Source: Janibacter cremeus (GTDB taxonomy: Bacteria > Actinomycetota > Actinomycetes > Actinomycetales > Dermatophilaceae). From it: a stretch of 64,000 bases of DNA. The notes below the pieces were generated by a model that was not told where the DNA came from, ran no database searches, and saw only the letters and a list, made by a program, of their open reading frames with translations. Of this stretch, positions 266-62,773 are shown in pieces. Position 1 is the first letter of the stretch. Each line of letters opens with the position of its first letter. The stretch spans positions 1,674,001 through 1,738,000 of the forward strand of contig NZ_CP115184.1 of NCBI RefSeq assembly GCF_029395675.1, written 5' to 3'. A program made the translations under genes and the position numbers.

Positions 266-1942
266 GTGAGCACCGACACACCCCGTCCCACCACCGACAT
301 CGATCGCATCGCCGAGGCACACCTCGACGCCGAGGTCGCGCTCTCCCCGATCGAGGCGACCTACCTCGGCGTCCCGGGGCACGACGCCGACCTGGACGAC
401 CTCTCCCCCGACGGGTTCGCCGCCGCATCACGATTGCGTCTCGAGACGCTGGCAGCGTTGGAGGGAGCCACCCCCGTCGACGACGTCGACCGGGTGACCC
501 TGGAGGCGATGCGTGAGCGGCTCGGGCTCGCCGAGGAGATGCACGAGGCCGGTCTGGACCTGAGCGAGGTCAACGTGCTCGCCTCACCGATGCAGTCCGT
601 GCGCGACGTCTTCGACGTGATGCCCACCGCGACCCCCGAGGACTGGGCGACGATCGCCACCCGCATGGGCAAGGTCCCGACCGCCCTCGAGCAGTGGACC
701 GAGTCGCTCACCGCAGCGGCCGGCAGGGGGCGGATCGCCCCCCTTCGCCAGTACGAGCGGTGCATCGAGCAGTGCGCCGACCTGACCGCCCCGGACGGCT
801 ACTTCGCCTCCTTCCTCGCGGGCGCGGGGCTGGACGGGCAGCCGCTCCCGGAGTCCCTCGCCGCCGACCTGCGCCGCTCGGTCGACGCGGCCGCCGGCGC
901 CTACCGCGACCTGGCCGAGCGGCTGAAACCGTTGCGGGACAGGGCCCCCGAGGCTGACGCCTGCGGCCGCGAGGACTACGAGCTGCACTCGCGCGCCTTC
1001 CTCGGCGCCCGTGTCGATCTCGAGGAGACCTACGCCTGGGGCCAGGAGGAGCTCGCCCGGATCACGGGTGAGATGGCCGCGGTCGCCGAGCGGATCTCCC
1101 CCGGCGCGACCATCCGGGAGGCCATCGCGATCCTCGACGCCGACCCCCGGTACCAGATCCACGGCACCGACGCGCTGCAGGCGTGGATGCAGGAGAAGGC
1201 GGACGAGGCCATCGAGCTGCTCTCCCCGCACATGGACATCCCCGAGCCGGTCCGCACCATCGAGTGCATGATCGCGCCCACCGAGACGGGCGGCATCTAC
1301 TACACCGGACCGAGCGACGACTTCTCCCGCCCGGGCCGGATGTGGTGGTCGGTGCCGAAGGGGGTCACCCAGTTCGGCACGTGGCGCGAGCTGACGACCG
1401 TCTACCACGAGGGCGTGCCGGGCCACCACCTCCAGGTCGGCCAGACCATCCACCGCCGGCAGCTGCTCAACCGCTGGCGTCGCCTGGCCTCGTGGACGTC
1501 GGGCCACGGCGAGGGCTGGGCGCTGTACGCGGAGTGGCTCATGGCCGAGCTGGGCCACATGGACGACCCCGGCAACCGGATGGGCCTGCTCGACGGTCAG
1601 TCGCTCCGGGCGGCGCGGGTGGTCCTGGACATCGGGGTGCACTGCGGGTTCGAGGCGCCCGCCGAGGTCGGGGGCGGCGCCTGGACCTACGAGAAGGCGT
1701 GGACCTTCCTCAGCGCCCACGCCAACATGGAGGAGAGCTTCCTGCGCTTCGAGCTGGATCGATACCTCGGGTGGCCCGGGCAGGCCCCGAGCTACAAGAT
1801 CGGTGAGCGGCTCTGGCTGCAGCTGCGTGACGAGACCGCCCGCCGCGAGGGCGATGCCTTCGACCTGAGGGCCTTCCACCGCCGGGCCCTCGACGTCGGC
1901 GGTGTCGGCCTGGACACGCTACGCACCGCGGTCTTGGGCTGA
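266..1942 (+). CDS. DUF885 family protein, putative metallopeptidase
   Basis: A 558-residue cytoplasmic protein without signal peptide or membrane segment. The DUF885 signature HEGVPGHHLQ is at about residues 381-390, followed about 30 residues later by GHGEGWALYAEWL, which supplies a second conserved Glu. These resemble the zinc-binding sites of gluzincin peptidases, so peptidase activity is the usual inference for the family, but no substrate is known. I chose GTG 266 because an ATG at 215 has no ribosome-binding site while GTG 266 follows a -10 hexamer by seven bases. The extra 17 residues from ATG 215 do not look conserved. Length suits the family. Confidence 0.82.
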   Translation: MSTDTPRPTTDIDRIAEAHLDAEVALSPIEATYLGVPGHDADLDDLSPDGFAAASRLRLETLAALEGATPVDDVDRVTLEAMRERLGLAEEMHEAGLDLSEVNVLASPMQSVRDVFDVMPTATPEDWATIATRMGKVPTALEQWTESLTAAAGRGRIAPLRQYERCIEQCADLTAPDGYFASFLAGAGLDGQPLPESLAADLRRSVDAAAGAYRDLAERLKPLRDRAPEADACGREDYELHSRAFLGARVDLEETYAWGQEELARITGEMAAVAERISPGATIREAIAILDADPRYQIHGTDALQAWMQEKADEAIELLSPHMDIPEPVRTIECMIAPTETGGIYYTGPSDDFSRPGRMWWSVPKGVTQFGTWRELTTVYHEGVPGHHLQVGQTIHRRQLLNRWRRLASWTSGHGEGWALYAEWLMAELGHMDDPGNRMGLLDGQSLRAARVVLDIGVHCGFEAPAEVGGGAWTYEKAWTFLSAHANMEESFLRFELDRYLGWPGQAPSYKIGERLWLQLRDETARREGDAFDLRAFHRRALDVGGVGLDTLRTAVLG

Positions 1943-2065
1943 GCGGGGTCACACCGGGAGCACCCCGACTGACAAAGGACGCGTCCCTTGGCCCTCGTTC
2001 CTCGGGCCTTGAGTCAGGCCGCGCCCTTCGCCAACCGGGGTGCCGGCGCCGGTCAGCCACTCACC

Positions 2066-3475: not shown

Positions 3476-4096
3476 ATGACCTCGCTCGTCCTCGCCTCCG
3501 CCTCCCCCGCCCGCCTCGGTCTGCTGCGCGCCAGCGGCATCGACCCCGACGTGGTCGTCAGCGATGTCGACGAGGACGCCGTCGAGACGGAGGTTCGGCG
3601 GCGCGATCCCGACCTCTCCCCCGCCGGGCTCGCCCAGGTCCTCGCCGAGGCGAAGGGGGCCACCGTCCGGGATCGGCTGGCCGGCGACCGCCGGCTCGTG
3701 CTCGCCTGCGACTCGGTGCTCGAGATCGACGGAGCCGTCCACGGCAAGCCCGGCACGGTCGAGGTCGCCCGCCGTCGGTGGCGGGACGTGCGCGGCAGGA
3801 CCGGCGTGCTGCACACCGGGCACTGGCTCGTCGACCCGGTCAGCGGCCGGAACACCGGCGCGACGGCGAGCGCGACCGTGCACTTCGCCGACATCACCGA
3901 CGAGGAGCTCGAGGGCTACCTCGCCACCGGCGAGCCGCTGCACGTCGCGGGCGGCTTCACGCTCGACGGGGTCGGCGCCCCCTTCGTCGAGTCGATCGAG
4001 GGGCACCCGAGCACGGTGGTCGGGCTCTGCCTGCCGCTGCTGCGCAGGCTGCTGGGCGACCTCGACATCCCGTGGTGGGACGTCGCCTCCGCCTGA
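3476..4096 (+). CDS. Maf-like nucleoside triphosphate pyrophosphatase
   Basis: A 206-residue cytoplasmic protein of the Maf family, which hydrolyses nucleotides (dTTP/UTP or modified nucleotides, depending on subfamily) to the monophosphate. The SASPARLGLLRASG motif at the N-terminus is the substrate-binding signature, and ACDSVLEIDG plus GKP later match the conserved Asp and Lys regions. A GTG at 3470 is also in frame, but ATG 3476 has AGGAG nine bases upstream, the better spacing. The subfamily is not resolved. A strong hairpin follows within six bases of the stop. Confidence 0.88.
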   Translation: MTSLVLASASPARLGLLRASGIDPDVVVSDVDEDAVETEVRRRDPDLSPAGLAQVLAEAKGATVRDRLAGDRRLVLACDSVLEIDGAVHGKPGTVEVARRRWRDVRGRTGVLHTGHWLVDPVSGRNTGATASATVHFADITDEELEGYLATGEPLHVAGGFTLDGVGAPFVESIEGHPSTVVGLCLPLLRRLLGDLDIPWWDVASA

Positions 4097-4157: not shown

Positions 4158-5240
4158 TCAGGAGACGGGAGTCGCCGTCGCGGCCTGCGCGTCGACGATG
4201 CCCTTGCCGTACATGAGGCTGGACCCGCCGCGGGTGCCGAGCACGGGGTGGCGCGCGGTGGTGAGGATCGCGTCCTCGACACCGACCATGGGCCGGCCCT
4301 GGCCGTAGAGCAGGGCCGCGACGCCGGCGACGTGCGGGGTCGCCATCGAGGTACCCGCGTACGCGTCGTAGTCCGCGCCGCCGCACTCCGCGGTCCCGGT
4401 ACCGCGCGGGACGGTGGAGATGATGTCGTCCTCGCAGGGGCCACCGAGCGGGCTGCCGGCGCCACCCGGGGCGGCCACGGCCTTCCCGCTGAGCTTGATC
4501 GGCGTCTCGGAGTAGTAGGCCTTCATCTCGTCGCGGTCCGTCGCCCCCACGCAGATCGAGTCGCTGTTGAAGGCGGGGTCGTTGCACAGCAGCGTGGAGG
4601 AGTTGCCGGCCGCCGCGACGGTCAGGGCGCCCTTGTCCCGGGCGTACTGGATGGCGTCGATGGTGGTCGTGTCCAGCCCCAGCGCCCCGATGAGCTGCAG
4701 ACCCGGCAGGCTGCCGAGGCTGAGGTTGATGACGTCCGCGCCGTTGTCGGCCGCCCAGCGGATGCCCTCGGCGATGTCGGCATTGGTGCCCGAGCCGTCC
4801 TCGAGCACCTTGATCGGCATGATGTTGGCGTCCGGGGCGACGCCCGCGACGCCGATCCCGTTGTCGGCGACGGCCGCGACCGTGCCGGCGACGTGGGTGC
4901 CGTGGGAGTCGACGTCCTGGCCGACCCCGTCGACGCCCTTCCACCCGCCGTCCCCGCAGGAGCCCTCGTGGCCCTCCTCGCAGACGAAGGTCGCGCCCGG
5001 CACGAGCTGGCCGGCCAGGTCGGGGTGACCGAGGTCGACGCCGGTGTCGACGACCGCGACGGTCGCGCCCTCACCGGTCGTGGCCCCCCACGACTCCTCG
5101 GCGTTGATCTGGTCCAGGCCCCACAGGTCGGGGCGAAGGGGGTCGCTGGTCGCCGCTCCGGCGCCTCCGGCGGTCGCCACGAGGCCGACCGCACAGGCGG
5201 CTGCCGCCAGGGGGGCAGTCCATCGAATGCTGCGCTGCAT
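4158..5240 (-). CDS. Secreted subtilisin-like serine protease (S8)
   Basis: A 360-residue exported endopeptidase. Residues 1-30 are a signal peptide (MQRSIRWTAPLAAAACAVGL, then VATAGGAGAA). Catalytic residues are visible: Asp65 in VAVVDTGVDLGHPDL, His113 in DSHGTHVAGT, Ser298 in AGTSMATPHVAG, with the oxyanion Asn in AAAGNSS. There is almost no propeptide between the signal sequence and the domain, and no C-terminal anchor. Cysteine pairs around residues 87-95 suggest disulfides. ATG 5240 has a GGAGG box eight bases upstream, so upstream in-frame codons are not used. It is expressed away from the acyl-CoA genes behind it only by a short gap. Confidence 0.9.
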   Translation of the reverse strand: MQRSIRWTAPLAAAACAVGLVATAGGAGAATSDPLRPDLWGLDQINAEESWGATTGEGATVAVVDTGVDLGHPDLAGQLVPGATFVCEEGHEGSCGDGGWKGVDGVGQDVDSHGTHVAGTVAAVADNGIGVAGVAPDANIMPIKVLEDGSGTNADIAEGIRWAADNGADVINLSLGSLPGLQLIGALGLDTTTIDAIQYARDKGALTVAAAGNSSTLLCNDPAFNSDSICVGATDRDEMKAYYSETPIKLSGKAVAAPGGAGSPLGGPCEDDIISTVPRGTGTAECGGADYDAYAGTSMATPHVAGVAALLYGQGRPMVGVEDAILTTARHPVLGTRGGSSLMYGKGIVDAQAATATPVS

Positions 5241-8204: not shown

Positions 8205-8654
8205 ATGACAAGTCCGACGAAGGGGGCGCGACGCCCGGGGCCGAGCGGGTCCCCGGACGGGACCGACGCCGTCGACCCTGCCGAGCGGACGTGGACCATC
8301 CGGGAGATCGCCGACGAGTTCGGCATCACCACCCGCACGGTGCGCCACTACGAGGACATCGGCCTGCTCTCCCCCGAGCGGGTCGGCACGACGCGCATCT
8401 TCCACCGCCGCGAGCGCACCCGGCTGTCGTTGATCATGCGCGGGCGGCGGCTCGGCTTCCCGCTCGACGAGATCGCCACCATCGTCAACCTCTACGACGT
8501 CCCGCGCGGCAAGCGCAGCCAGCTGGAGTACGTGCTGGGGCAGATCGACGAGCGCCGGGAGGACCTCGAGCAGCGACGCCGTGACATCGAGGACGCACTG
8601 ACCGAGCTGAGCACCTTCGAGCAGCGCTGTCAGGACGAGCTCGACGCCCTCTGA
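8205..8654 (+). CDS. MerR family transcriptional regulator
   Basis: A 149-residue DNA-binding regulator. The winged HTH (TWTIREIADEFGITTRTVRHYEDIG region, about residues 30-75) is canonical MerR, followed by a long dimerisation helix and a Glu/Arg-rich coiled C-terminus. There is no Cys cluster for metal sensing, so an organic or acyl-CoA ligand is more likely, as in regulators of acyl-CoA catabolism. ATG 8205 is chosen over 8193 because a -10-like hexamer ends seven bases upstream, giving a leaderless message. It probably represses or activates the divergent dehydrogenase/carboxyltransferase operon and itself through the palindrome upstream. Confidence 0.85.
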   Translation: MTSPTKGARRPGPSGSPDGTDAVDPAERTWTIREIADEFGITTRTVRHYEDIGLLSPERVGTTRIFHRRERTRLSLIMRGRRLGFPLDEIATIVNLYDVPRGKRSQLEYVLGQIDERREDLEQRRRDIEDALTELSTFEQRCQDELDAL

Positions 8655-8838: not shown

Positions 8839-10817
8839 ATGCACACCTCCACCGCTCCCGTCCGAGCGCTCCTGGGCGCTGGCCTGGCCGGCGTCGTCGC
8901 GTTCACCGGCGCCGTGGCCACAGCGGCCACGGCCGACACGCAGACCGGGACCACCGCCACGAGCGCCACCGAGGAGCCGGGTGAGCTGCTGCTGATGCTC
9001 GACGCGTCCGGGTCGATGAAGGAGTCCGACCCTGCCGGCGGGACCAAGATGCAGGCAGCGAAGACGGCCCTGACCGGCGTGGTGGAGTCGCTGCCGAGCG
9101 ACACCAACGTCGGCCTGCGCGTCTACGGCGCCACCGAGGAGGGCGGCAAGCCCACCAAGGCCGCCTGCAACGACACCCAGCTCGCCGTCCCGATCGGCCC
9201 CCTGGACAAGCCCGCCCTCACGCGGGCCATCAAAGGCTTCGAGGCCAAGGGCGAGACGCCCATCGCCCACTCCCTGACCAAGGCCATGGACGACCTGGGC
9301 GACACCGGCAAGCGCAACATCGTCCTCGTCTCCGACGGCGAAGAGTCCTGCGTGCCCGACCCCTGCCCCGTCGTGAAAGACCTCGTCCAGGACGGCGTCG
9401 ACCTGCGTATCGACACCGTCGGCTTCGGCGTCGAGGACACCGCCCGTGAGCAGCTGCAGTGCATCGCCGAGACCGGCGGCGGCACCTACTACGACGCCGC
9501 CGACGCCGACGAGCTCGCCAACAGCCTGAACAAGATCTCCACCCGCGCCGTGCGCGACTTCGGCTTCACCGGTCAGCCCGTCACCGGCACCGACCTCGCC
9601 GAGAACGAACAGGCACCCGCTGACCTGCCCACCCTCACCCCCGGCCTCTGGACCGACGAGCTGACCGCCAGCGAGGACTCCTGGCGCGCGTACACCATCG
9701 AACGCACCCAGAAGCAGTCCACCCTCCATGTCTCCGTCACCACCAAACCGAAGACGTACTACAACCGCGAGGAGGACGACGCCGACCTCGAGAACCTCTA
9801 CCTGACGATCCTCGCCCCCGACGGCACGGAGTGTGCTGACGAGTTCGGAATCGTCGGAGACTTCCACGGGTTCAAGCGGATCGTCACCGTCACCGGGCAC
9901 GTGCTCGGCCAGTCACCCGAGGAGGAACCCGCCAGCGAGTCCTGCCGGGCGATGGGCACCTTCACCGCCTTGGTCCACCGAGAGGGAGCGCAGCAGACCA
10001 CACCGACGGAGATCCAGGTCATCGAGGAACCCAGGGTCACCAACCTGCCCGAGCTGCCGGACGCCGCCGGCGACCTGCCGGAGGCGAAGGACCTGACGGC
10101 GGGTGAGGCGCAACCGATCGCCGGTGGTCTGTCCTTCTCCGACGCCCCCGCGATCACCGAAGGCACCTGGGTCGACACCCTCGTCCCCGGGGAGACCCTC
10201 GTCTACCGGGTCAAGGTCGACTACGGCCAGACCGCCCGATTCACCACCCACGGCCCCACCGGCGGCTTCCGATTCCCCGCGGACATCGGCCGCACCAACT
10301 ACCTGCTCATCGATGGGGAGGCCTTCTCCCCGGACCGGCAGAAAGTGGACGAGAGTGTGCGCGCTCCGGGTCAGTTCAATCCTGCGTACTCGTCCCCCGG
10401 GTCGGTGCGCACCGCGAACGTCCGGTACAAGAACCGCTACGCGAACACCTCGACCGTCGACGCCACCCCCGCGGCCAGCATGAGCGGGTGGTACTACTAC
10501 GCGCTCGGGGTCAGCACCAAGGAGGTCGGCGAGGACCTGGCGGGTCAGCCGATCAAGGTCGCCTTCACCGTCGACCTCGAGGGCAAGCCCACCAACCTCG
10601 TCGAGTACGCCAGCGAGGACGAGACGAGCGCCGAAGCCACGGACAAGAAGCAGGCGGACGACTCCGGCGACACCGGTAGCAAGGAGGCCGGTGCGGCCGC
10701 CGCAGCCACGAGCGACGAAGGGGGCTCCCCCCTTCCGTGGGTCGGTGGCGGTCTGCTCGCCGCGATCGTCCTCGGCGCCGGCGCGTGGTTCGGCCTGCGC
10801 CGCAAGGGTGCCGGGGC

Positions 10818-10845: not shown

Positions 10846-12090
<1,245 letters not shown>

Positions 12091-12098
<8 letters not shown>

Positions 12099-12593: not shown

Positions 12594-13502
12594 ATGACCC
12601 ACACCCCGCGCTTCGCCTCCGTCGACGACGTCCGGGAGCGCCTGGCCGCCCACGGCTACCTCGCCTCGGACGCGATCGCGACGACGGTCTTCCTCGCCGA
12701 CCAGCTGGGCAAGCCGTTGCTCGTCGAGGGTCCTGCGGGCGTCGGCAAGACCGCCCTGTCCGCCGCGGTCGCCGCCGCGACGCAGGGCCAGCTCGTGCGC
12801 CTGCAGTGCTACGAGGGCGTCGACGAGGCCCGAGCGCTGTACGAGTGGAACCACGCCAAGCAGCTGCTGCGGATCACGGCCGCCGGCGCGCACCACGACG
12901 CGAAGGGGGCGGACGAGGCCGACTGGTCATCGGTCAAGGAGGACATCTTCACCGACGAGTTCCTCCTCTCCCGGCCCCTGCTCACCGCCATCCGCAACGA
13001 GCACCCGACCGTGCTGCTCATCGACGAGCTGGACAAGGCCGACGTCGAGATCGAGGGGCTGCTGCTCGAGGTGCTCTCCGACTTCCAGGTGACCGTCCCC
13101 GAGCTCGGGACGATCAGGGCGCGGCAGACCCCCTTCGTCGTCCTCACCTCGAACGCCACGCGGGAGCTGTCCGAGGCCCTGCGCCGCCGCTGCCTCTACC
13201 TGCACATCGACTACCCCGAGGCCGGGCTCGAGCGGCAGATCGTCGCCCTGACCGTGCCGGACCTCGACGCGACGCTCGGCGACTCGATCGTCCGGCTGGT
13301 CGGTGCCCTGCGCGAGATGCGGCTGCGCAAGTCCCCCTCCGTCGCCGAGACCATCGACTGGGCACGCACCCTGCTCAGCCTCGGGGCCTCCGGCGACCTC
13401 GACCCGGAGCTCGTGCGCTCGACCCTGGGCGTCGTGCTCAAGCACCGGGAGGACATCGAGCTCGCCGCGCAGAAGCTGGATCTGGACCGTGCCGTCGTCT
13501 GA
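12594..13502 (+). CDS. MoxR-family AAA+ ATPase
   Basis: A 302-residue ATPase with Walker A GPAGVGKT (46-53), Walker B LLIDELDKAD (about 139-148), sensor-1 LTSNATRELSEALRRRC and a C-terminal lid domain. MoxR ATPases act as chaperones that remodel or insert cofactors into partner proteins, usually with a VWA-domain protein encoded next door, as here: the VWA gene start lies 14 bases inside this gene's 3' end. The client is unknown; no dehydrogenase or CO-dehydrogenase gene is nearby. Confidence 0.88.
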   Translation: MTHTPRFASVDDVRERLAAHGYLASDAIATTVFLADQLGKPLLVEGPAGVGKTALSAAVAAATQGQLVRLQCYEGVDEARALYEWNHAKQLLRITAAGAHHDAKGADEADWSSVKEDIFTDEFLLSRPLLTAIRNEHPTVLLIDELDKADVEIEGLLLEVLSDFQVTVPELGTIRARQTPFVVLTSNATRELSEALRRRCLYLHIDYPEAGLERQIVALTVPDLDATLGDSIVRLVGALREMRLRKSPSVAETIDWARTLLSLGASGDLDPELVRSTLGVVLKHREDIELAAQKLDLDRAVV

Positions 13503-14970: not shown

Positions 14971-14989
14971 CGCCCCCTTCGCCCCCCAA

Positions 14990-15860: not shown

Positions 15861-18424
15861 GCGGCACCGAGCCCCTCGTCGGGCTGGCCTCCATCCGCGC
15901 CCGGCTGGCGGTCCTCGTCGGCGCGAGCGTCCTCGTCGCCGCGGTCCTCGGCGCGGTCGGCACCGATGCAGGCCTCCCCCTCTGGCTCGCCCTGCCCGCG
16001 ACGATCGCCCTCGCGCTCGTGGTCACCCAGTGGCTCGCGAGGGGGATGACGACCCCCCTTCGCCAGATGACCGAGGCGGCCGAGCGGATGGCCCGCGGCG
16101 ACTACGGCGCCCGGATCACCACGAGGGGCAGCGACGAGGTCGCCGCCCTCGCGCGGGCCTTCACGACGATGGCTCGTGACCTGCAGCAGGCGGAGGAGCA
16201 CCGTCGCCGGCTCGTCGCCACCGTCGCGCACGAACTACGCACCCCGCTGAGCGCCCAGCGGGCCCTCCTGGAGAACCTCGTCGACGGGGTCACCGCCCCG
16301 AGCGACGCGTCGCTCGGCAAGGCACTCGCCCAGTCCGAGCGCCTCAGCTCGCTCGTCGCCGACCTGCTGGACCTGTCCCGTCCTGACGGCGGCGTCCCCC
16401 TCTCCCACACCCGGGTCGTCGTCGCCGACCTCGTCGAGTCCGCCGTCGGCGAGGCGTCCCTCCAGAGCCGCGAGGTCACCCTCGTCACCGACGTGCAGCC
16501 GGCCGACCTGACCGTCACCGGCGACCGCGCCCGCCTCGCCCAGGTCACCGCCAACCTCCTCGACAACGCCGTGCGCCACAGCCCCTCGGGGGGCACCGTC
16601 ACGGTCACCGCCCGCGGCGACGACGACCGGTGGTCACTCACCGTCACCGACGAGGGGCCGGGGCTGTCGCCGCAGCGGGCCGAGCGCCTCTTCCACCGCT
16701 TCGGTCCCGGCGGGGACGAAGGGGGTGGCACCGGCCTCGGTCTGGCCATCGCCGGATGGGTCGCCGACATGCACGGCGGCGCGATCCGGGCCCTCACCCC
16801 GGACGAGCCCGGGGCCCGGCTGCGCATGACGCTGCCCCTCGTGCCCCCCGGACCGAGCGACTCCGGATCGTGGCCCACGGCCACGGCGGCGCAGCCGCTC
16901 CGCCCATCACCCACCTCGACCCGCACGGAGCCGACGATGACCACCCCGACACCACCCACCACCACGGCCGCGGAGGCACCCCCTTCGTCCCTGATCGCCC
17001 GGTGGTGGCCCGAGCGGGTCACCACCGCCCGGCCGGACCTGCTCCTGGCCGCCCTCGGCGTCGGGATCGTCGCGGCGATCCTGCTGCCGGACACCGCGAT
17101 CGGTCTCGGGCTCCTCGTCGTCCTCGCCTGCGGCGGCCTGGCGATCTGGCTCGCGTCACCCCTCCGCACGGCGCCGTGGTCGTGGGTCGCGGCGGCGCTG
17201 TCACTTCCGCTCGCCGCGACGACCGTGCTGCGCGACAACCCGGGCTTCACCTTCATCGCCGTCGCGGTCGCCGGTGTCCTCGCGGCGACCTCGTGCACCG
17301 ACGCCCGCACCCTCCCGGGGATCGTGGCCGCGGTCGCGGCCTGGCCGTTCTCGGCGCTGCGCGGCCTCCCCCTGCTCGACCGGACCATCAAGGCGCTGGC
17401 CCGTCGGGGGAGGACGTGGTCGGTGCTGCGGACCGCCATCGTCAGCCTCGTGCTGCTCCTTGTCTTCGGAGGGTTGCTCGCCTCCGCCGACGCGGTCCTC
17501 GGGTCGTGGGCCTCGGCGCTCGTCCCGGAGCTGAGCGACATGGTCGTCTTCCGGACCTTCACCCTCGTCTTCTTCACCGGCATCACCCTCACCGGGCTGT
17601 ACCTGTCGATCAACCCGCCCCACGTCGACGGCATCCGGGGCGGCTCGGCACGGATCCCGACGTGGGAGTGGGCGGTCCCCCTCGGCGTCGTCATCGCGAT
17701 CTTCGTCGCCTTCATCGCCGCGCAGGCGGCCGCCATGTTCGGCGGGCACGACTACGTCCTGCGCACCACGGGGGTCACGTACGCGGAGTCCGCCAGGGAG
17801 GGCTTCGGCCAGCTGACCGTCGCCACGGCCCTGGTCCTGCTCCTGGTCGCAGGGGTGCGTGCCTGGGGCCGGGCGGACAGCGACCGCGACCGCCACCTCA
17901 TGACGACGATGAACGCCATCCTGTGCGTGCTCACCCTCGTCGTCGTCGCCTCGGCCCTGCGACGCATGGCCCTGTACCAGGAGGCCTTCGGGTACACGGT
18001 CCTGCGCGTGAGCGTCGACCTCTTCGAGATCTGGCTCGGAGTCGTCGTGCTCGCCGTCCTCGTCTCGCTCTTCACCCCGACCCGCCGGTGGCTCGGCCGC
18101 ACCGTGCTCGTCAGTGCGGCCCTGGTGACGATCGTGTGGTCGGTGGGCAACACGAGTGCCTGGGTCGCCGAGCACAACATCGAGCGCTGGGCGGCAACCG
18201 GGTCCCTCGACGAGCGCTACCTGGCGCAGCTCCCGGCCGATGCCGCGCCGGCCATCCACGAGAGCTCGCTGCCGAGGGAGGTCAAGGCGTGCATCCTCCA
18301 TGCCTCCCCCACCACCGACGCCTCCGACGACGGCCTGCCGGGGTGGAACGTCGCCCGGGAGCGCGCCGCGGACATCCGGGCGCAGTACCCGGCCCCGAGC
18401 ACCTGCACCCTCTCGACCGACTGA
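15857..18424 (+). CDS. Sensor histidine kinase fused to a DUF4153/DUF4173-type membrane domain
   Basis: One uninterrupted frame of 855 residues. The first ~335 form a standard kinase: two transmembrane helices (about 12-60), HAMP (61-112), H-box [10 protein letters not shown] with His125, N-box [10 protein letters not shown] (about 232-241) and G-box [12 protein letters not shown] (about 290). A Pro/Thr/Ser-rich linker follows to residue 372, then about 480 residues with some ten to twelve hydrophobic helices of the DUF4153/DUF4173 type. An internal ATG at 16937 (residue 361) has CGGAG seven bases upstream, so the membrane domain may also be made separately. In such loci these are normally two genes; here the stop between them is absent. 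GTG 15857 overlaps the regulator stop. Confidence 0.85.
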
Positions 18425-20346: not shown

Positions 20347-20373
20347 TCACCTCGGCGGGCGAGCGCACCAGCG

Positions 20374-20416
20374 ACGCCGCCCCCGGCACGCCTCCCCGGC
20401 GTGCCGGGGGCGGCGT
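20374..20416 (+). terminator. Perfect 19-base hairpin after accBC
   Basis: ACGCCGCCCCCGGCACGCC pairs perfectly with its complement around a five-base loop TCCCC. There is no T tract, usual for actinobacterial terminators. It lies between the accBC stop (20346) and the MFS GTG at 20427, and would fall inside the coding region if that gene starts at a non-standard CTG. Confidence 0.7.
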
Positions 20417-40491: not shown

Positions 40492-40554
40492 GGACGAAGG
40501 GGGCGGCCCCGCGCATCTCGCACCGACGGCCGCGACTCTGGGAGACTCCGCCTC

Positions 40555-41550: not shown

Positions 41551-42657
<1,107 letters not shown>

Positions 42658-45702: not shown

Positions 45703-47922
<2,220 letters not shown>

Positions 47923-47936: not shown

Positions 47937-47982
47937 CGAAGGGGGTCGTGCCGGCTGCTGCTGCAGCCGGCGACCCCCTTCG
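47937..47982 (+). terminator. Terminator of icd built from an inverted pair of CGAAGGGGG
   Basis: CGAAGGGGGTCG (47937-47948) pairs with CGACCCCCTTCG (47971-47982), with an inner stem CCGGCTGC/GCAGCCGG and a four-base loop. The outer arms are exact copies of the window-wide 9-mer. Confidence 0.85.
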
Positions 47983-48028: not shown

Positions 48029-49549
48029 ATGAACGTCCGAGCTGCCACAGCGGCCGCGTGCGGGATCCTCGCGACCGCCCTCGGGGGCGCCGCCGCGCAC
48101 GTCGTCGCGGCACTGGTCTCGCCGTCGGCCTCCCCGGTCCTCGCCGTCGGGGGCCAGGTCATCGACCTCACCCCCACGCCGGTCAAGGAGTGGGCGGTCG
48201 CGACCTTCGGCACGGCGGACAAGCCGGTCCTCATCGGTTCGGTCGTCGTCGTCACGCTCCTGCTGGCCGCACTGGCAGGACTCCTTCGTCCCCGCTCGCG
48301 TGCCGCGGCCGTCACCGTCCTGCTCGTGCTCACCGCCCTCGCCGGCGCCGCCGGGGTGCTGCGACCGCAGACCGGGTCCTTTGCCTGGTTGCCCGCCCTC
48401 GTGGCGGCCGTCGTCGGGGTGGCCGCCCTGGAGCTGCTCGTCTCCCGCACCGGGCTCCTCGGGCAGGGCCGGTCCGCGCCGGGTGAGCCGACCCGTCGTG
48501 GCCTCCTCGCGCTCGGTGGCGCCGGCCTCGGGGCGGCCGCGCTGGGCGCCGGCGGCCAGGCACTCGTCCACCGTCGGGCACCGGCCACCATCACCCTGCC
48601 CACGGCGGTCGACCCGCTGCCACCACTGGTGAAGGGGGTCGATCTCGGCAGAGCGGGCATCACCCCCTTCGTCACGCCGAACGAGGACTTCTACCGGATC
48701 GACACCGCCCTCCTCGTGCCGAAGGTCGACCCGCGGGACTGGTCGCTCACCATCGACGGCGACGTGCCCTCCCCCCTCACGATCGACCTCGACGAGCTGC
48801 TCGCGATGCCCGCCGTCGAGCGGGACATCACGCTCAACTGCGTCTCCAACCCGGTCGGCGGCCCCTACGTCGGCAATGCCCGCTGGCTGGGTGTCCTCAC
48901 GCGCGAGCTCTTCGCCCGCGCCGGGATCGAGGAGGACCCGGGCAACCCGGACCTGCAGGTGCTGTCCACCTCGACGGACGGGATGACGATCTCCACACCC
49001 CTGAGCGCACTGCTCGACGACCGCGACGCCCTCGTCGCCGTCGGCATGAACGGCGAGCCACTGGCGGCCGAGAGGGGCTTCCCGGCCCGTCTCCTCACCC
49101 CCCGGCTGTACGGCTTCGTCGGCGCCACCAAGTGGCTGACCCGGATGACCGTGACCCGCTACGACGAGCACCCTGCGTACTGGACCGAGCGGGGCTGGGC
49201 CACGGACGGGACCGTCAGGACGCAGTCGCGCATCGACACCCCGACACCGTCGGCCGGCCTCGACCCTGGACGCGTGACGATCGGTGGGGTGGCCTGGGCC
49301 CAGGGTCGCGGGATCACGAAGGTCGAGGTGCGCGTCGACGACGGGCCGTGGCAGCGCGCCACCCTGGGCGCCGAGGCGGACATCGACTGCTGGCGGCAGT
49401 GGTTCCTGCCCTGGGAGGCCGGCGAGGGTCGGCACGAGCTCACCGTCCGCGCGACGGACGGCACCGGCGAGGTGCAGACGACCGACACCGCTGACCCCTT
49501 CCCCTCCGGCGCCACGGGGCTGCACTCGATCGCGGTGACCGTGACCTGA
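48029..49549 (+). CDS. Membrane-bound molybdopterin-dependent oxidoreductase (sulfite oxidase family)
   Basis: A 506-residue protein. The N-terminal ~160 residues contain four transmembrane helices; after them TRRGLLALGGAGLG resembles a twin-arginine-type segment inside the chain. The Moco domain follows (FYRIDTALLVPKVDPRDW onwards), with the molybdenum-ligand Cys in ITLNCVSNPVGG, then the beta-rich dimerisation domain (VTIGGVAWAQGRGITKVEVR). It would reduce or oxidise small oxyanions or sulfoxides outside the membrane. Such genes accompany sigK-rskA and fasciclin genes in actinobacteria. The upstream promoter suggests control by the neighbouring sigma factor. Confidence 0.85.
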   Translation: MNVRAATAAACGILATALGGAAAHVVAALVSPSASPVLAVGGQVIDLTPTPVKEWAVATFGTADKPVLIGSVVVVTLLLAALAGLLRPRSRAAAVTVLLVLTALAGAAGVLRPQTGSFAWLPALVAAVVGVAALELLVSRTGLLGQGRSAPGEPTRRGLLALGGAGLGAAALGAGGQALVHRRAPATITLPTAVDPLPPLVKGVDLGRAGITPFVTPNEDFYRIDTALLVPKVDPRDWSLTIDGDVPSPLTIDLDELLAMPAVERDITLNCVSNPVGGPYVGNARWLGVLTRELFARAGIEEDPGNPDLQVLSTSTDGMTISTPLSALLDDRDALVAVGMNGEPLAAERGFPARLLTPRLYGFVGATKWLTRMTVTRYDEHPAYWTERGWATDGTVRTQSRIDTPTPSAGLDPGRVTIGGVAWAQGRGITKVEVRVDDGPWQRATLGAEADIDCWRQWFLPWEAGEGRHELTVRATDGTGEVQTTDTADPFPSGATGLHSIAVTVT

Positions 49550-49686: not shown

Positions 49687-50328
49687 ATGATGGGCTCCGT
49701 GACGCCATTCCCCGGCAAGGACGAGGGCGGAGGTGCCACCGGCGCCTCCTCCAGCGAGACGACGCTGCCCGCGGCCACGGAGTCCGACCGGCTCGCCGCG
49801 ACCCTTCGCGACGTCGCGAAGGGGGACGACGCCGCCTTCGCCCGTGTCTACGACGCCACGTCCGCGCGAGTCCACGGCCTCGTGCTGCGTGTGCTGCGCA
49901 ACCCGGCGCAGGCGGAGGAGGTCACCCAGGAGGTCTACCTCGAGGTCTGGCGCCGCGCCAGCTCCTTCGACGCGGCCAAGGGCTCGCCGTATGCATGGCT
50001 GATGACCCTGGCCCACCGTCGGGCCGTCGACCGGGTCCGCAGCAGCCAGTCGGCCACCGCGCGGGACGAGACCTGGGAGGCGCGCACCCGCGACATCCAC
50101 TACGACACGACGGCCGAGAGAGCGACCGAGAGGATGGAGGCCCATCGGGTGCGCACGGCGCTCCACGGGCTGACCGACGCCCAGCGCGAGGCGGTGAGCC
50201 TGGCCTACCTCGGGGGATACACCCACCGCGAGGTCGCCGGTCTGCTCGACCTGCCCCTCGGCACCGCCAAGACCCGCATCCGTGACGGGTTGATCCGCCT
50301 ACGAGACCAGTTGGGAGTGACCTCATGA
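49687..50328 (+). CDS. sigK: SigK-type ECF sigma factor
   Basis: A 213-residue ECF sigma factor with region 2 (FARVYDATSARVHGLVLRVL...AEEVTQEVYLEVWRRA) and region 4 (LTDAQREAVSLAYLGGYTHREVAGLLDLPLGTAKTRIRDGL). The anti-sigma gene follows with ATGA overlap, the SigK/RskA arrangement. Its promoters appear to be CAATCC-CGAANC elements upstream. Start choice among ATG 49687, ATG 49690 and GTG 49699 is uncertain. A 12-base palindrome GTGATCGATCAC (49673-49684) lies just before the start. Confidence 0.85.
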   Translation: MMGSVTPFPGKDEGGGATGASSSETTLPAATESDRLAATLRDVAKGDDAAFARVYDATSARVHGLVLRVLRNPAQAEEVTQEVYLEVWRRASSFDAAKGSPYAWLMTLAHRRAVDRVRSSQSATARDETWEARTRDIHYDTTAERATERMEAHRVRTALHGLTDAQREAVSLAYLGGYTHREVAGLLDLPLGTAKTRIRDGLIRLRDQLGVTS

Positions 50329-51062
50329 GTGAGGACCTGCACAGCCTCTCCGGCGCCTACGTGCTCGACGCCCTCACCGAGCAGGAGCGCGTGGACTTCG
50401 AGATGCACCTGCGTCGCTGCCCGACCTGCCGCGACGAGGTCGCCTCGCTGCGCGAGGTGGCGCCCCTGCTCGCCGAGACGGTCGCGAGCGAGCCACCACC
50501 CTCGCTGCGGGAGAGCATCCTCGCCCAGGCGGCCCGGACCCGGCAGGACCCACCGGACGCCGTCCGGCAGGCGGAGGTGCCGCCCGAGCGCGAGCGCGAT
50601 CGCCCTGCGCACGGCCGGGTCATCCCTCTTCGTCGTCGCCGGTGGGTGGCCGGCCTCGCCGCGGCGGCAGCCCTCGTCGTCGGCGGCGGCATCACGTGGC
50701 AGGTCGTCGAGCAGACGACCGCCGGTGTCACCGAGCAGGTCGCCTCGGCGCCGGACGCCCGCAGCTGGAAGGCGGAGACCACGGGCGGCGCCACGATCGT
50801 CGTCACCCGCAGCGAGCAGATGGGTGAGGCCGTGCTGCGCCTCGACGGCCTGGACGACCCCGGCGAGGGCCGCGTCTACCAAGCCTGGCTGCAGAACGAG
50901 GAGGGCAACATGGTCCCGGCCGGCCTGATGCGCGAGACCGACGGCGAGATGGTCCTCGACGGCGACGTCAACCAGGCGAAGGGGGTCGGCGTCACCGTGG
51001 AGCCGGCCGGCGGCTCGGACCAGCCGACGAGCGACCCGATCGCCCTCGTGGAGCTGTCCTGA
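50325..51062 (+). CDS. rskA: RskA-type anti-sigma factor
   Basis: A 245-residue single-pass membrane protein. The cytoplasmic N-domain (1-70) carries the zinc anti-sigma motif HLRRCPTC; a transmembrane helix lies at about 107-127 ([19 protein letters not shown]), and the extracytoplasmic RskA domain follows ([19 protein letters not shown]). It would hold SigK until cut by regulated proteolysis. Its ATG overlaps the sigK stop. A -10 for mdh lies 34 bases after its stop. Confidence 0.88.
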
Positions 51063-54660: not shown

Positions 54661-56259
54661 TCAGTGGGCGAAGTGCCGGGTACCGGTGAAGTACATCGTG
54701 ATCCCGGCGGCCTCCGCCGCGGCGACGACCTCCTCGTCACGCACCGACCCTCCGGGCGCCACGACCGCGGAGACCCCGGCGTCGAGGAGGACCTGCAGGC
54801 CGTCCGCGAAGGGGAAGAACGCGTCGGAGGCCGCCACGGCCCCCTTCGCCCGCTCCGCGCCCGCGCGACCGACCGCGAGGTGGCAGGAGTCGACCCGGTT
54901 GACCTGGCCCATGCCGATGCCGACCGAGCCCTTGTCCTTGGCCAGCAGGATCGCGTTGGACTTCGTCGCGCGCACTGCGCGCCACGCGAAGGCGAGGTCC
55001 GCGAGGGTCGCCTCGTCCGCGGCCGGGCCCGTGACACGGGTCCAGGCCTCGGGGGCGTCACCGTGCCCCTGGGTCGGCTTCTCGTCGTCCTTCGCCCCGA
55101 CGACCGCATCGATCGCGTCACGGTCCTGGACGAGCAGGCCACCGGAGACGGGACGCATCTCGACGCCACCGGGTGTCGGCGTGGCGACCTTGAGCAGGCG
55201 CCGGTTCTTCTTCTCCCTCAGGATCGTCAACGCGTCGGCGTCGAAGTCCGGCGCGAGGACGACCTCCGAGAAGGTGTCGTTCAGGGCGGTGGCCATGGCC
55301 GCGGTGACCGGGCGGTTGCTCGCGACGATGCCGCCGTAGGCCGAGACCGGGTCACACGCGTGGGCGCGCTCGTACGCGGCCTCGATGGTCTCCCCCACCG
55401 CGATGCCGCACGGGTTGGCGTGCTTGATGATCGCGACGGTCGGCAGGCCGGCGTGGTCGTGCGCGGCACGCAGGGCGGCGTCGGCGTCGACGTAGTTGTT
55501 GTAGGACATCTCCTTGCCGTGCAGCTGCTCGGCCTGCGCGAGCCCCTCGACGCCGTCGGCGACGTACAGGGCCGCACCCTGGTGCGGGTTCTCGCCGTAG
55601 CGCAGCCCGGACTTCTTCGCCCAGGTCCCGCCGAGCCATCCGGGGAAGCGGGTCTCGTCGCTCGGGCTGACGACCGAGCCCAGCCAGGAGGCGACCGCCA
55701 CGTCGTAGGTCGCGGTGTGGATGAAGGCCTCGGTGGCGAGCCGCTCGCGCTGGGCCGGGGTGAAACCGCCGCCGCGCACCGACTCGAGGACCTCGCCGTA
55801 GCTGGTCGGGTCGGTGACGATCGCGACGGACGCGTGGTTCTTCGCGGCTGCACGCACCATCGTCGGGCCGCCGATGTCGATCTTCTCGATGCAGTCCTGC
55901 ACGCCGGCCCCGGAGGCGACGGTGTCGGCGAAGGGGTAGAGGTTGACCACGACGAGGTCGAAGGGGGCGACCTCCAGCTCCTCGAGCTGACGCACGTGGT
56001 CGGGCAGACGGGTGTCGGCGAGGATGCCGGCGTGGACGCGCGGGTGCAGCGTCTTCACCCGCCCGTCGAGGCACTCGGGGAAGCCGGTGAGGTCCTCCAC
56101 CTTGGTCACGGGCAGGCCGAGCTCATCGATCGCGGCGGCCGAACCACCGGTGGAGACGAGCTCGACGCCCGCGTCGGCGAGACCCCGGACGAGGTCCTCC
56201 AGACCGGTCTTGTCGAAGACGGAGACGAGGGCGCGGCGGACGGGACGGCGATCGGACAC
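54661..56259 (-). CDS. purH: Bifunctional AICAR transformylase/IMP cyclohydrolase
   Basis: A 532-residue enzyme of the last two steps to IMP. The N-terminal MGS-like IMP cyclohydrolase domain begins [18 protein letters not shown] and has STGGSAAAI and [14 protein letters not shown]; the C-terminal transformylase domain contains [25 protein letters not shown] and the closing GTRHFAH. GTG 56259 has AGGAG five bases upstream. It has its own promoter some 100 bases upstream and continues into folD. Confidence 0.95.
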
Positions 56260-56395: not shown

Positions 56396-57001
56396 TCAGC
56401 CGACGAGGCAGCGACGCCCCTCGACCCGCCAGCCACCCGTGGCCATGCGCGTGACGACGTCGACGAGCATGGTGCGCTCGACGACCTTGATCCGCTCGTG
56501 GAGCGTCTCCTCGGTGTCCTCGTCGGTGATCTCGACGACGCGCTGCTCGATGATCGGCCCCGTGTCGACCCCCGCGTCGACAAGGTGAGCGGTCGAGCCG
56601 GTGACGCGCACCCCGTGGGCGAGGGCGTCACGCACACCGTGCGCACCGGGGAAGGAGGGCAGCAGCGCCGGGTGGGTGTTGAGGAAGGTGGCGCACGAGA
56701 GCGTGGCCGGGCCCAGGATCTTCATGAACCCCGCGGTGACGACGAGGTCCGGGGCGTACTCGCGCACCCGCTCGGCCAGGGCGGCGTCCCAGGTGGCCCG
56801 GTCGGGGTGGGCGGAGACGGCTTCGACGAAGGTCGGGAGACCCGCCGACTCGGCCCGCTCGAGGCCGGTGCACCCCGGCCGGTCGGCACCGACGGCGACG
56901 ACCTCCGCGGGGAACGTGCCGGTCGCCTGCGCGTCCAGGAGGGCCTGCAGCAGGGAGCCGGATCCGGAGACGAGGACGAGGAGACGAAGGGGGCCGCGCA
57001 C
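56396..57001 (-). CDS. purN: Phosphoribosylglycinamide formyltransferase
   Basis: A 201-residue GAR transformylase using 10-formyl-THF. LVLVSGSGSLLQALLDA is the N-terminal phosphate-binding segment, GFMKILGP precedes NTHPALLPSFPGAHG (catalytic Asn and His), and VDAGVDTGPIIEQ the catalytic Asp. GTG 57001 lies 22 bases after the DUF6350 stop, within a CGAAGGGGG copy. Confidence 0.93.
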   Translation of the reverse strand: MRGPLRLLVLVSGSGSLLQALLDAQATGTFPAEVVAVGADRPGCTGLERAESAGLPTFVEAVSAHPDRATWDAALAERVREYAPDLVVTAGFMKILGPATLSCATFLNTHPALLPSFPGAHGVRDALAHGVRVTGSTAHLVDAGVDTGPIIEQRVVEITDEDTEETLHERIKVVERTMLVDVVTRMATGGWRVEGRRCLVG

Positions 57002-57023: not shown

Positions 57024-58193
57024 TCAGCGGCGCAGGACCCACCACTCGCGGGCGAAGACCACCAGGGCGCCCAGCCCGAGCTCGAGCGCGAGCGCGGGGC
57101 CGAGCAGCTCGGCGGGTGCGCCGACGTGGGAGAGGTGCTCGGCGCCGAGCGAGCCACCGCCGAGCACATCGAGGGCGACGACCCCGATCGCCGCGACGGC
57201 GACGGAGACGGCGATGACCGCGAGCTTGGTCTGGGTCGCGGCGAGCCGGGGCACCCAGACGAGCGTCTCGCGGCCCAGCCACGCGCCGACGAGCACCGGC
57301 AGCAGGACGAGCAGGCTCATGGCCCACGGCAGGTCCCCCGGCTGCGGCTGCGCCGCGAGCACCGGGACCATCGGCAGCAGCCCGGAGTCGGCCGTGGCCC
57401 ACGTGGTGGTGGCTCCCCCGGCGGCGAAGCCGGGCCCGGCGGCGAAGCTGGCTCCCCAGATGCCCAGGTTGGGCAACGCGCCGACCTGCAGCAGCACGAG
57501 CAGCAGCCCACCGAAGAAGCCCGCCCCGAGGTCGGCGTGGACCTGCAGCACGCGCGCGACGTTGATCCCGGTGGCCACGAGCACGAGCACTGAACCGACC
57601 ACGAGGGTGACCAGCGCCCCCTTCGCCCCCGGGACGAGCCCGCGGTGCACGGCGACGGGGGCACGCTCCCACACGCCGAGCACGCGGTCGGGCAGCCCGT
57701 GCGCCCAGACCAGCGCCACTGCAGGCAGGACCACGAGCGGGAGGAGGAGGGAGAGCGGGTCCGGGCCCACCGGCGCGAGCAGGCCCAGCAGGGCCACGAC
57801 CCCACCGACCCCGGCGTACCCGCCGAGCCAGGACCCCTGCAGGCGCAGGTCGGGCGCCCGCGGGAGGCCCCGGCGCGCGCCGCACCGACCGAGCGCGAGG
57901 AGGGCGAGGGTCCACAGCAGCGGGGTGAACGCCAGGGTGCCTCCCTCGAGGTCGAGCCGGGCACCGCCGAGGACGAGCCACAGCAGCGCCCCGGCCCCGA
58001 TCGACTCCCCCACGCCGGCAGCGGCACGAGGAACGGCGAGCGCCGCCAGCAGGACGAGCACCACGGGTGCACACAGCCCGGCAAGGGCGGTCAACGCCCC
58101 CGTCCCGGCGGCCCGCAGCTCGGGTCGCCGGCGGAGGTCCTGGTCGACGGTCGTCGCGGACCTGATGAGCTCCAGCACGGTCACGCCCCCCAT
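57024..58193 (-). CDS. DUF6350 multi-pass membrane protein
   Basis: A 389-residue integral membrane protein with about ten to twelve hydrophobic helices, Ala/Leu/Gly-rich, no charged catalytic motif. Proteins of this family stand before purN-purH in many actinobacteria; no function is known. ATG 58193 or GTG 58184 may be the start; only the latter has GGGGG close upstream. It is divergent from an ECF sigma gene across about 106 bases. Confidence 0.82.
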   Translation of the reverse strand: MGGVTVLELIRSATTVDQDLRRRPELRAAGTGALTALAGLCAPVVLVLLAALAVPRAAAGVGESIGAGALLWLVLGGARLDLEGGTLAFTPLLWTLALLALGRCGARRGLPRAPDLRLQGSWLGGYAGVGGVVALLGLLAPVGPDPLSLLLPLVVLPAVALVWAHGLPDRVLGVWERAPVAVHRGLVPGAKGALVTLVVGSVLVLVATGINVARVLQVHADLGAGFFGGLLLVLLQVGALPNLGIWGASFAAGPGFAAGGATTTWATADSGLLPMVPVLAAQPQPGDLPWAMSLLVLLPVLVGAWLGRETLVWVPRLAATQTKLAVIAVSVAVAAIGVVALDVLGGGSLGAEHLSHVGAPAELLGPALALELGLGALVVFAREWWVLRR

Positions 58194-60921: not shown

Positions 60922-62165
60922 GTCGTGCTCCTGTCCTGGTTGTCGGCCGGCAGCCACGGCAGGTCGTGGCCCATCCGGTCCCTCTTGGTGCGCAGGTAGC
61001 GCAGGTTGTCGTCGGTGATCCCGGCCGGCAGCGAGGTGCGGCCGACGACCTCGATGCCGAGGGCGCCGAGCGCCTGGACCTTGGCCGGGTTGTTGCTCAG
61101 CAGCTGCAGCCGCGTGACGCCGAGCTCGCGCAGGACCTGCGCCGCGTGGGTGTAGTCCCGGGCGTCGACCGGCAGCCCCAGGTCGGAGTTGGCGTCGACG
61201 GTGTCGGCGCCCGCGTCCTGCGCGGCGTACGCGCGCAGCTTGTCGACGAGGCCGATGCCCCGCCCCTCGTGACCGCGCACGTAGACGATGACGCCGGCAC
61301 CCGCCTCGACGATGACGCGCTGGGAGGCCTCGAGCTGGGGGCCGCAGTCGCAACGCAGGGATCCGAAGACGTCCCCGGTGAGGCACTCGCTGTGCACGCG
61401 CACCAGCGGGGTCCCGGTCGTGATGTCGCCGTGGACGAGCGCGATGTGCTCGCTGCCGTCGATCCCCGAGCGGAAGCCGTGCGCGGTGAACTCGCCGTTG
61501 GCCGTGGGCAGCCGGGTCGTCACGACCGGCTCGATGAGGGCCTCGGTGCGACGACGGTGCTCGACGAGGTCGGCGATGCTGACCAGCGGCCAGCCGCGCT
61601 CGTCGGCGAGGCGGCGCAGGGAGGGCAGCCGGGCCATCGACCCGTCCTCCTCGACCACCTCGCAGATGACGCCGGCCGGGGCGCGCCCGCCGAGGCGGCA
61701 CAGGTCGACCGCCGCCTCGGTGTGTCCGCGTCGCACGAGCACGCCACCGTTGCGGGAGCGAAGGGGGAAGACGTGACCCGGTCGGGCGAGGTCGCTGCGC
61801 ACCGTGGTCGGGTCGGCGAGCAGCTGCGCGGTACGGGCCCGGTCGGCGGCGCTGATGCCGGTCGTCACGCCCCGGGCGGCATCGACGGAGACGGAGTAGG
61901 CGGTGCCCTTGGAGTCCTCGTTGATCGCCGTCATCGGGGGCAGCGCGAGCCGGTCGAGCTCCTCGCCGGTCATCGCCACGCAGATCACGCCGCTGCCGAG
62001 GCGCACGGTCAGCCCCATCAGCTCGGGGGTCGCGGCGTCGGCGGCGAAGATGATGTCGCCCTCGTTCTCCCGGTCGGCGTCGTCGACGACGAGCACCGGC
62101 TCGCCCGCCGCGATCGCCTCGATCGCGGTCTCGACGTCGTCGAGCAGGTCGTCACGCCGGTTCAT
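60918..62165 (-). CDS. ribBA: Dihydroxybutanone-phosphate synthase/GTP cyclohydrolase II
   Basis: A 415-residue bifunctional enzyme. The N-terminal RibB domain (1-205) has [19 protein letters not shown] and [24 protein letters not shown]; the C-terminal RibA domain has [21 protein letters not shown] (zinc cysteines) and [16 protein letters not shown]. It makes both riboflavin precursors from ribulose 5-phosphate and GTP. Start overlaps ribE and stop overlaps ribH, each by four bases. Confidence 0.95.
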
Positions 62166-62773
62166 CGGTTCTCTCCCGTGTCGAGTGCGAGCATGCGGTT
62201 CACGTACTTGCCGAGGACGTCGACCTCGACGTTGACCCGGTCGCCGATCCCCTTGCGGCCCAACGTGGTCAGCTCGAGGGTGGTGGGGATCAGGGCGACC
62301 TCGACGTAGTCCTCCCCGACCGCCGAGAGGGTCAGGCTGACGCCGTCGAGGCAGATCGATCCCTTCTCCACGACGAAGGGGGCGAGCTGCGGGTCGAGGG
62401 AGACCCGCACCTCCTCCCAGCGGTCGCCGGGACGGCGCTCGAGGATGGTCGCGGTCCCGTCGACGTGACCCTGGACGAGGTGGCCGTCCAGCCGGGCGCC
62501 GAGGACCATCGCCCGCTCGAGGTTGACGGCGTCACCGACGGCGAGGTCGCCGAGGCCGGTGCGGCGCAGGCTCTCGGCCATGACGTCGAAGGTGACCTCG
62601 CCCCCCTTCGCCTCCGTGTCGGTGACGGTGAGGCAGGCGCCGTTGACGGCGATCGAGGCCCCGTGGGCCGGGTCGCTCGTGGTGACATCGCCGCGGACGG
62701 TGATCCGGCTGGAGTCGGTGCCCTGCTCGATGGCGACCACCTCCCCGAGCTCCTCGATGATCCCGGTGAACAT
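62162..62773 (-). CDS. ribE: Riboflavin synthase, alpha chain
   Basis: A 203-residue protein with two lumazine-binding repeats. It starts with the invariant [17 protein letters not shown] in the first repeat and DGVSLTL in the second are the paired motifs. It dismutates two lumazines into riboflavin. ATG 62773 shares one base with the ribD stop (TGATG). Confidence 0.95.

Follow-up and report, generated by a model that had tools for sequence, protein, structure and literature searches.

CGAAGGGGG, a short word dispersed through the Janibacter cremeus genome, as a candidate DNA uptake sequence in a monoderm bacterial family

The stretch of DNA considered here comprises 64,000 nucleotides of the Janibacter cremeus genome (G000; NZ_CP115184.1, positions 1,674,001 to 1,738,000 of the forward strand) and is referred to as the window. 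It is rich in the 9-mer CGAAGGGGG, which acts at the level of DNA and, as we argue below, is probably a DNA uptake sequence. The window holds 37 exact copies, 21 on the forward and 16 on the reverse strand, the first starting at position 739 and the last ending at 62610, in agreement with the initial annotation of this DNA. An order-3 Markov model expects 2.17 copies; in 100 dinucleotide shuffles of the window the mean was 0.97 and the maximum 5.

According to a simple codon-usage gene caller made for this analysis, 33 copies lie in genes and four between genes. In genes of the forward strand the word is found, on the strand given in brackets, at 739..747 (-) and 1356..1364 (+) in gene 266-1942, 3651..3659 (+) and 3978..3986 (-) in gene 3476-4096, 8218..8226 (+) in gene 8205-8654, 10716..10724 (+) in gene 8839-10845, 12901..12909 (+) and 13129..13137 (-) in gene 12594-13502, 16054..16062 (-), 16717..16725 (+) and 16979..16987 (-) in gene 15857-18424, 21031..21039 (+) and 22036..22044 (-) in gene 20427-22370, 23807..23815 (-) in gene 22831-24600, 24734..24742 (+) and 24910..24918 (-) in gene 24609-26297, 27625..27633 (-) in gene 27615-28388, 46349..46357 (+) in the isocitrate dehydrogenase gene 45703-47922 (PF03971), 48663..48671 (-) in gene 48029-49549, 49817..49825 (+) in gene 49687-50328 and 50977..50985 (+) in gene 50325-51062. 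Genes of the reverse strand carry it at 5134..5142 (+) in gene 4158-5180, 11789..11797 (+) in gene 10818-12098, 32266..32274 (+) in gene 31703-32968, 35586..35594 (+) in gene 34065-35615, 41634..41642 (-) in gene 41551-42588, 54840..54848 (-) and 55959..55967 (+) in gene 54661-56259, 56985..56993 (+) in gene 56396-57001, 57617..57625 (-) in gene 57024-58193, 61759..61767 (+) in gene 60918-62165, and 62374..62382 (+) and 62602..62610 (-) in gene 62162-62773. Two of the intergenic copies, at 14973..14981 (-) and 40495..40503 (+), stand alone, while the other two form an inverted pair (47937..47982, +) that begins 14 bp past the stop codon of isocitrate dehydrogenase, with 47937..47945 (+) as the 5' arm and 47974..47982 (-) as the 3' arm of a terminator-like hairpin.

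Over the whole genome (one contig of 3,495,359 bp) the word occurs 1,587 times, 818 forward and 769 reverse, and its control, the same word read backwards, 34 times; the density of one copy per 2.2 kb makes the window, at one per 1.7 kb, somewhat richer than the genome. In a 464-kb sample consisting of the window and 20 evenly spaced 20-kb stretches, 203 copies were observed, close to neither the 13.6 expected under an order-4 Markov model nor the 57.8 under order 5, the latter being raised because its 6-mers are themselves inflated by the motif, and under both models CGAAGGGGG ranks first among all 9-mers. Among its one-mismatch forms in this sample, CGAAGGGAG (41 vs. 11.0 expected), CGAAGGGGA (25 vs. 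7.9), CGAAGAGGG (23 vs. 8.8) and GGAAGGGGG (21 vs. 6.3) show moderate enrichment, and many others show none. In the flanks G is preferred at -2, R is preferred at -1 and G is disfavoured at +9; the looser consensus is G-R-CGAAGGGGG-H. The information of the flanks amounts to 0.2-0.5 bits, at -2, -1, +9 and +16 only, position +16 falling in a three-base rhythm as from codons. Copies are about five-fold less dense in 5-kb bins below 68% G+C (nine copies in 19 such bins, 213 in the 92 others), though low G+C can stand in for recent acquisition only as a proxy. Outside the window, three motif places in a row reappear at an exact shift of 90,678 bp (G000:C1, about 19,600-25,600 and 110,300-116,300), a pattern suggestive of an extensive duplication close to the start of the contig.

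Could the excess reflect codon usage or protein sequence? The initial annotation had argued that it does not, and the codon frames that it quoted are correct: the copies at 10716 and 16717 read xxC GAA GGG GGx, and those at 12901 and 50977 read xCG AAG GGG. In the 464-kb sample 160 copies lie in genes and 43 between them, and 100 within-gene shuffles of synonymous codons gave 25.7 genic copies on average and never more than 37; by this measure, too, CGAAGGGGG is the top 9-mer. The three frames on the coding strand hold 1, 53 and 23 copies, compared to 0.07, 8.75 and 0.64 after shuffling, and those on the opposite strand 7, 56 and 20, compared to 0.11, 15.8 and 0.38. All six classes of frame and orientation therefore exceed their shuffle mean, by 3.5- to 64-fold, one of them with a single copy, and the relative excess is greatest where the frame calls for codons that are rarely used at this G+C, namely CTT in xPLR and CCT in PPS. 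The same shuffles applied to the coding samples of this genome bring out GGTGCGCAC, which contains the palindrome GTGCGCAC (49 vs. 12.3) and is possibly a second DNA-level motif.

The sites themselves are conserved. In BLAST alignments to stretches of 13 relatives, whose aligned DNA is 78-93% identical, the word was unchanged in 105 of 165 aligned copies, compared to 2,466 of 7,925 nearby control windows in the same frame; against controls matched for peptide (same fully covered residues, same frame) it was kept in 96 of 152 cases vs. 373 of 1,328, that is, about twice as often. The corresponding p value of 4e-17 overstates the case because the same site counts once per relative, and the direction of the effect holds in 11 of the 13 relatives, the exceptions being G121 (0/2) and G001 (0/4), the latter with the lowest copy number in the genus (797). 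Together with the synonymous shuffles, the peptide-matched comparison led us to reject a codon or protein cause. Neither does the word follow the replichores: with the origin set at dnaA (2,603,335 of the contig) and the terminus assumed opposite, 559 kb of distinct DNA of this genome gave 117 leading- and 108 lagging-strand copies (p 0.59).

Relatives share the motif within narrow limits. It is enriched in all 16 genomes of the source genus (g1; 797-1,860 copies) and in all three of one other genus (g64, hereafter the partner genus), with a range over both of 797-1,939, and is at background in the other 167 genomes of the family examined (51 genera; at most 80 copies). In a sample of 394 genomes from the class, G000 and G122 are the only two with a conspicuous count; next comes a 9.2-Mb genome with 231 copies and a control count of 139. 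Frame-independence, the absence of strand or replichore bias, conservation of sites and this lineage distribution establish that CGAAGGGGG acts at the DNA level.

Other members of the family are rich in a second word, GTATGCCG. By thresholds set in this analysis, at least 300 copies and 2.4 times the control for high and below 120 for low, the 167 genomes that belong to neither g1 nor g64 divide into 110 high, 46 low and 11 intermediate ones, and the last were left out of the tests. Members of 31 genera lie above the threshold, with hundreds to thousands of copies per genome and similar forward and reverse counts, and GTATGCCG exceeds codon shuffles in all frames (204 copies in genes; for example 105 vs. 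14.3 and 49 vs. 2.7). The control word, too, reaches raised counts in many high genomes, probably as a by-product of longer forms, CCGTATGCCG among them, that include a portion of it. Three species of otherwise GTATGCCG-rich genera (G139, G065 and G114) lack the word. In 40-kb samples of sister genera, a word other than CGAAGGGGG ranks first: GTATGCCGCTG in G030 (17 copies), GGTATGCCG in G064 (12), CGTATGCCG in G022 (39) and related forms in G019, G026, G163 and G173. Samples of 40 kb from motif-poor genera (G016, G023, G024, G025, G028, G029 and G058), and 20 kb of G017, held no word of comparable strength, though weaker ones are possible. From these distributions, CGAAGGGGG and GTATGCCG are best read as putative genus-level dialects within one monoderm family.

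Closely spaced copies of CGAAGGGGG are arranged in a particular way. In 74 stretches of the source and partner genera (1.39 Mb, 581 copies), 31 pairs of neighbours within 60 bp are head-to-head where 3.4 are expected; the other arrangements number 1, 4 and 2, against about 3 each, or 7 in total against 9.5. Nine of the head-to-head pairs fall within called genes; the remaining 22 are intergenic, and 19 of them sit 8-26 bp downstream of a stop codon. The pair behind isocitrate dehydrogenase folds, over 71 nt, at -54.9 kcal/mol, compared to -33.1 for shuffled sequences (z -6.5). From fold and place, closely spaced copies would secondarily serve as transcription terminators. Close pairs of GTATGCCG are mostly tail-to-tail (9 of 20 vs. 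2.2 expected), and the head-to-head terminator pattern of CGAAGGGGG is therefore not shared by it.

The initial annotation had pointed to competence genes as a test, and the source genome has them. A comEA gene (SLBB and HHH domains) overlaps comEC at 443,146-446,351 of the contig (L041), and a tad cluster (L109) of the type known from Micrococcus encodes an ATPase, two T2SSF proteins, a pilin-like protein of 70 residues, two TadE-like proteins and one TadG-like protein, in the order A-B-C-small pilin-like-E-E-G. No Pfam family matches the pilin-like protein, and one member of the TadE-like pair scores below the Pfam curated cut-off. The cluster lies near genes for FtsX, SmpB and two proteins that, given their Pfam domains, we take to be release factor 2-like and FtsE-like. 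This genome has five Tad-type pilus loci (L109, L110, L111, L112) and 10 T2SSF matches, a number reached among 62 genomes only by G116 (11) and G185 (10). A relative of ComEA in the actinobacterium Microcella alkalica (L149), whose best segment covers query residues 90-271 at 51% identity, offers a usable outgroup. PilM of type IV pili was found in one of 57 family genomes, and not in G000; we rejected a type IV pilus as the route on this single PilM occurrence, with no search made for ComG-type pili.

The com-Tad ATPase is associated with the motifs. At most nine candidates per genome were scored, with E below 1e-55 as our own threshold for an ortholog-level match. By this measure 126 of the 129 motif-rich genomes have the ATPase, as do 33 of the 46 motif-poor ones (Fisher 2e-6). 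Thirteen of the 16 family genomes without a match among these candidates are motif-poor; they come from six genera, none of which has a motif-rich member, and by genus 0 of 33 motif-rich and 6 of 17 motif-poor genera are wholly without the ATPase (p 8e-4). The three motif-rich genomes without a match are G127 (73% complete), G205 (68% complete) and G122. As a weak sign only, at least three T2SSF matches occur in 33 of 33 motif-rich genomes and at most two in 7 of 29 others.

Which protein might read the word? TadE2 and TadG of the source genome are 66% and 63% identical to those of the partner genus, which uses the same word, vs. 56% and 56% to those of g68, and are closer to the partner genus than to the five other genera compared; TadA-C are about 81/70/70% identical to both g64 and g68. 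Against this pattern, the small Flp-like protein is closest to that of g2, a genus without CGAAGGGGG. On these identities TadE2 and TadG may be motif readers, as leads only, and shared ancestry could explain the likeness too.

Damage to the com genes could, at most, explain individual losses of a motif. The comEC gene of motif-poor G101 is in two parts about 28 kb apart (L114:5114-6727 and L115:9446-10153), with phage terminase, portal, head-protease, tape-measure and endolysin genes between them and 5 kb of the interval unseen; its gene content identifies the insertion as a predicted prophage seated in comEC. In G139, comEC ends near a contig end, matching to residue 381 of 797 before a stop, and is possibly damaged, although an assembly effect would do as well. 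G114 (L158, L164), which lacks the motif of its genus, has the com-Tad ATPase and TadB/C, but within 20 kb around these none of the four small Tad proteins of G000 finds a match, and its comEC match changes frame. Most other motif-poor genomes examined, however, have an intact comEA-comEC, the motif-poor G065 looks intact as well, and the motif-rich G007 and G064 carry frame changes or stops in comEA/comEC.

We consider it likely, on these combined observations, that CGAAGGGGG is a DNA uptake sequence that would mark self or kin DNA for natural transformation by way of a Tad/Flp-type competence pilus and ComEA/ComEC. Cells would be competent, and an extracellular protein, either a minor pilin of TadE/TadG type or ComEA, would bind the word, such that fragments bearing it would enter preferentially through ComEC. 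Recombination of these fragments would then favour motif-bearing alleles and both keep and spread the copies, a form of molecular drive. Among the possibilities that the initial annotation had raised, the uptake sequence is the best fit because of the inverted pairs of terminator type, the occurrence in sister genera of different words built in a like manner, and the com and Tad genes. With less assurance, we lean towards a wider proposal: an actinobacterial, monoderm form of DNA self-recognition whose origin would be separate from that in Neisseria and Haemophilus, in which a Tad/Flp competence pilus reads a short word and two or more dialects without relation to each other, among them CGAAGGGGG in two genera and GTATGCCG in members of 31, would have replaced one another across the family and been lost in single species.

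Several observations weigh against an uptake sequence. The source genome alone has a weak excess of pairs (4 vs. 1.4 expected), and the pairs of its relatives include orthologous copies of one terminator. The scarcity of copies at low G+C is partly compositional (excess over Markov 17-fold vs. 5-fold). ComEC occurs in motif-poor genera too, and com genes alone therefore do not predict the motif; damage to ComEA/ComEC is seen in 4 of 28 motif-poor or intermediate genomes vs. 2 of 28 motif-rich ones (G007 and G064; p 0.67). G065 is without the word of its genus, yet the com and tad genes checked look intact, its ComEA having the HHH domain. G122, with 1,939 copies, has no com-Tad ATPase among the nine or fewer candidates scored, and none was present in a stretch at another Tad hit or in one chosen by synteny. 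In seven motif-rich genomes the ATPase matches are weaker, at 1e-62 to 1e-95; once these are grouped with the genomes that have no ATPase, the p value of the Tad association rises from 2e-6 to 0.0014, and all p values for the association treat genomes or genera as independent, ignoring descent. Moreover, in the text of two papers on competence in Micrococcus luteus (PMC4322843, PMC8467076), the term “uptake sequence” occurs 0 times.

A Chi-like site or the site of some other DNA-binding protein had been named from the outset as the main alternative. The word could be bound by a protein unconnected with uptake, one that belongs to the nucleoid, organises the chromosome or discriminates self from non-self DNA. 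This would suit a word whose sites are conserved on either strand, in genic as well as intergenic DNA, and that is scarcer in stretches of low G+C. By itself, however, such a protein predicts no switch of word between genera, no pairs after stop codons and no association with Tad, and we regard it as unlikely. A Chi-like site that regulates a helicase-nuclease of AdnAB/RecBCD type, and hence recombination, is a doubtful candidate too. It would account for a G-rich, over-represented word that acts on DNA and is restricted by lineage, but E. coli Chi has a strong leading-strand bias, and the 117:108 distribution shows none; nor would Chi predict head-to-head pairs behind stop codons or the link to the Tad locus. 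It is very improbable that CGAAGGGGG orients a DNA translocase, as the FtsK-orienting polar sequences (KOPS) or SpoIIIE recognition sequences (SRS) do: its letters resemble those words, the SpoIIIE motif GAGAAGGG looking similar, but KOPS and SRS motifs are strongly polarised by replichore from origin to terminus, and a replichore-polar motif is rejected by the 117 leading and 108 lagging copies. Equally remote is an origin in codon usage, protein sequence or a family of dispersed repeats, since despite favoured frames (AKG, APFV/A) and a few intergenic copies inside a longer local repeat, synonymous shuffles expect 25.7 genic copies where 160 are observed, conservation exceeds that of peptide-matched controls, and the flanks carry 0.2-0.5 bits at four positions only. 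The local repeats in question, which may be small repeat elements, contain the motif inside the longer unit CCTAAGCAGTTGCGAAGGGGG or a variant of that unit (L007:3029-3068 and L016:7891-7968).

The window also contains a 15-bp tandem repeat of 26.7 copies (52432-52831) inside gene 52214-53128 (-). It encodes PPVKE pentapeptides, and the protein ends in a hydrophobic stretch with a basic tail.

Returning to the uptake sequence, the literature that we found describes such elements in two families of diderm proteobacteria, Neisseriaceae and Pasteurellaceae. Our search, which had most subscription journals and bioRxiv preprints outside its reach, found no uptake sequence in Actinobacteria, nothing related on natural competence in Intrasporangiaceae and nothing on Chi with Actinobacteria; for the motif words themselves it returned only an unrelated multiple-locus variable-number tandem repeat analysis (MLVA) study holding one of four words. 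If our proposal is true, uptake sequences would have originated independently, and family-wide, in high-GC Gram-positives, and there would be a chance of a second kind of receptor, since the candidate pilus is Tad/Flp and not type IVa. Words that switch and vanish across 53 genera would constitute a natural experiment in which uptake bias and selection, as forces that spread uptake sequences, become directly testable. A possible handle for transforming genera that are hard to engineer would follow as well.

How does the proposed system compare to those already known? Work on Neisseriaceae describes DNA uptake sequences (DUS) at about 900-6,000 copies per genome, with lineage variants known as dialects and some genomes of the family without them (PMC3630211). 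The family studied here is alike in its short word in high copy number, its lineage dialects and its genomes without a word. The likeness extends to inverted pairs, as opposite-strand pairs of uptake signals occur in the terminators of Neisseria and Pasteurellaceae according to PMC1852404. Unlike the dialects of Neisseria, which share the core CTG, CGAAGGGGG and GTATGCCG have no obvious core in common. Neisseria reads its DUS by the type IV minor pilin ComP (PMC6370729), whereas the candidate pilus here is Tad/Flp. Dependence of uptake on the word has been demonstrated in Neisseria, while the present case is known from sequence alone.

The uptake signal sequences (USS) of Pasteurellaceae have AT-rich downstream blocks, and these are absent from the flanks of CGAAGGGGG in the 464-kb sample of the source genome. 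Both are words of about 9 bp in about 1,000 or more copies, with close copies on opposite strands in excess and forming hairpins (PMC1852404). Pasteurellaceae, on the other hand, are diderm gammaproteobacteria, and the USS word is unrelated to CGAAGGGGG. The nearest parallel for the machinery is M. luteus, whose competence pilus genes run tad A-B-C-(flp)-E-G, accompanied by comEA-comEC (PMC4322843, PMC8467076); J. cremeus likewise carries comEA-comEC, together with tad genes arranged in the same order. In M. luteus the need for the pilus in transformation has been demonstrated, and in J. cremeus the pilus is known from its genes. On these comparisons CGAAGGGGG would work like a known kind of element, the DUS and USS, in a new setting, and is a candidate member of that kind.

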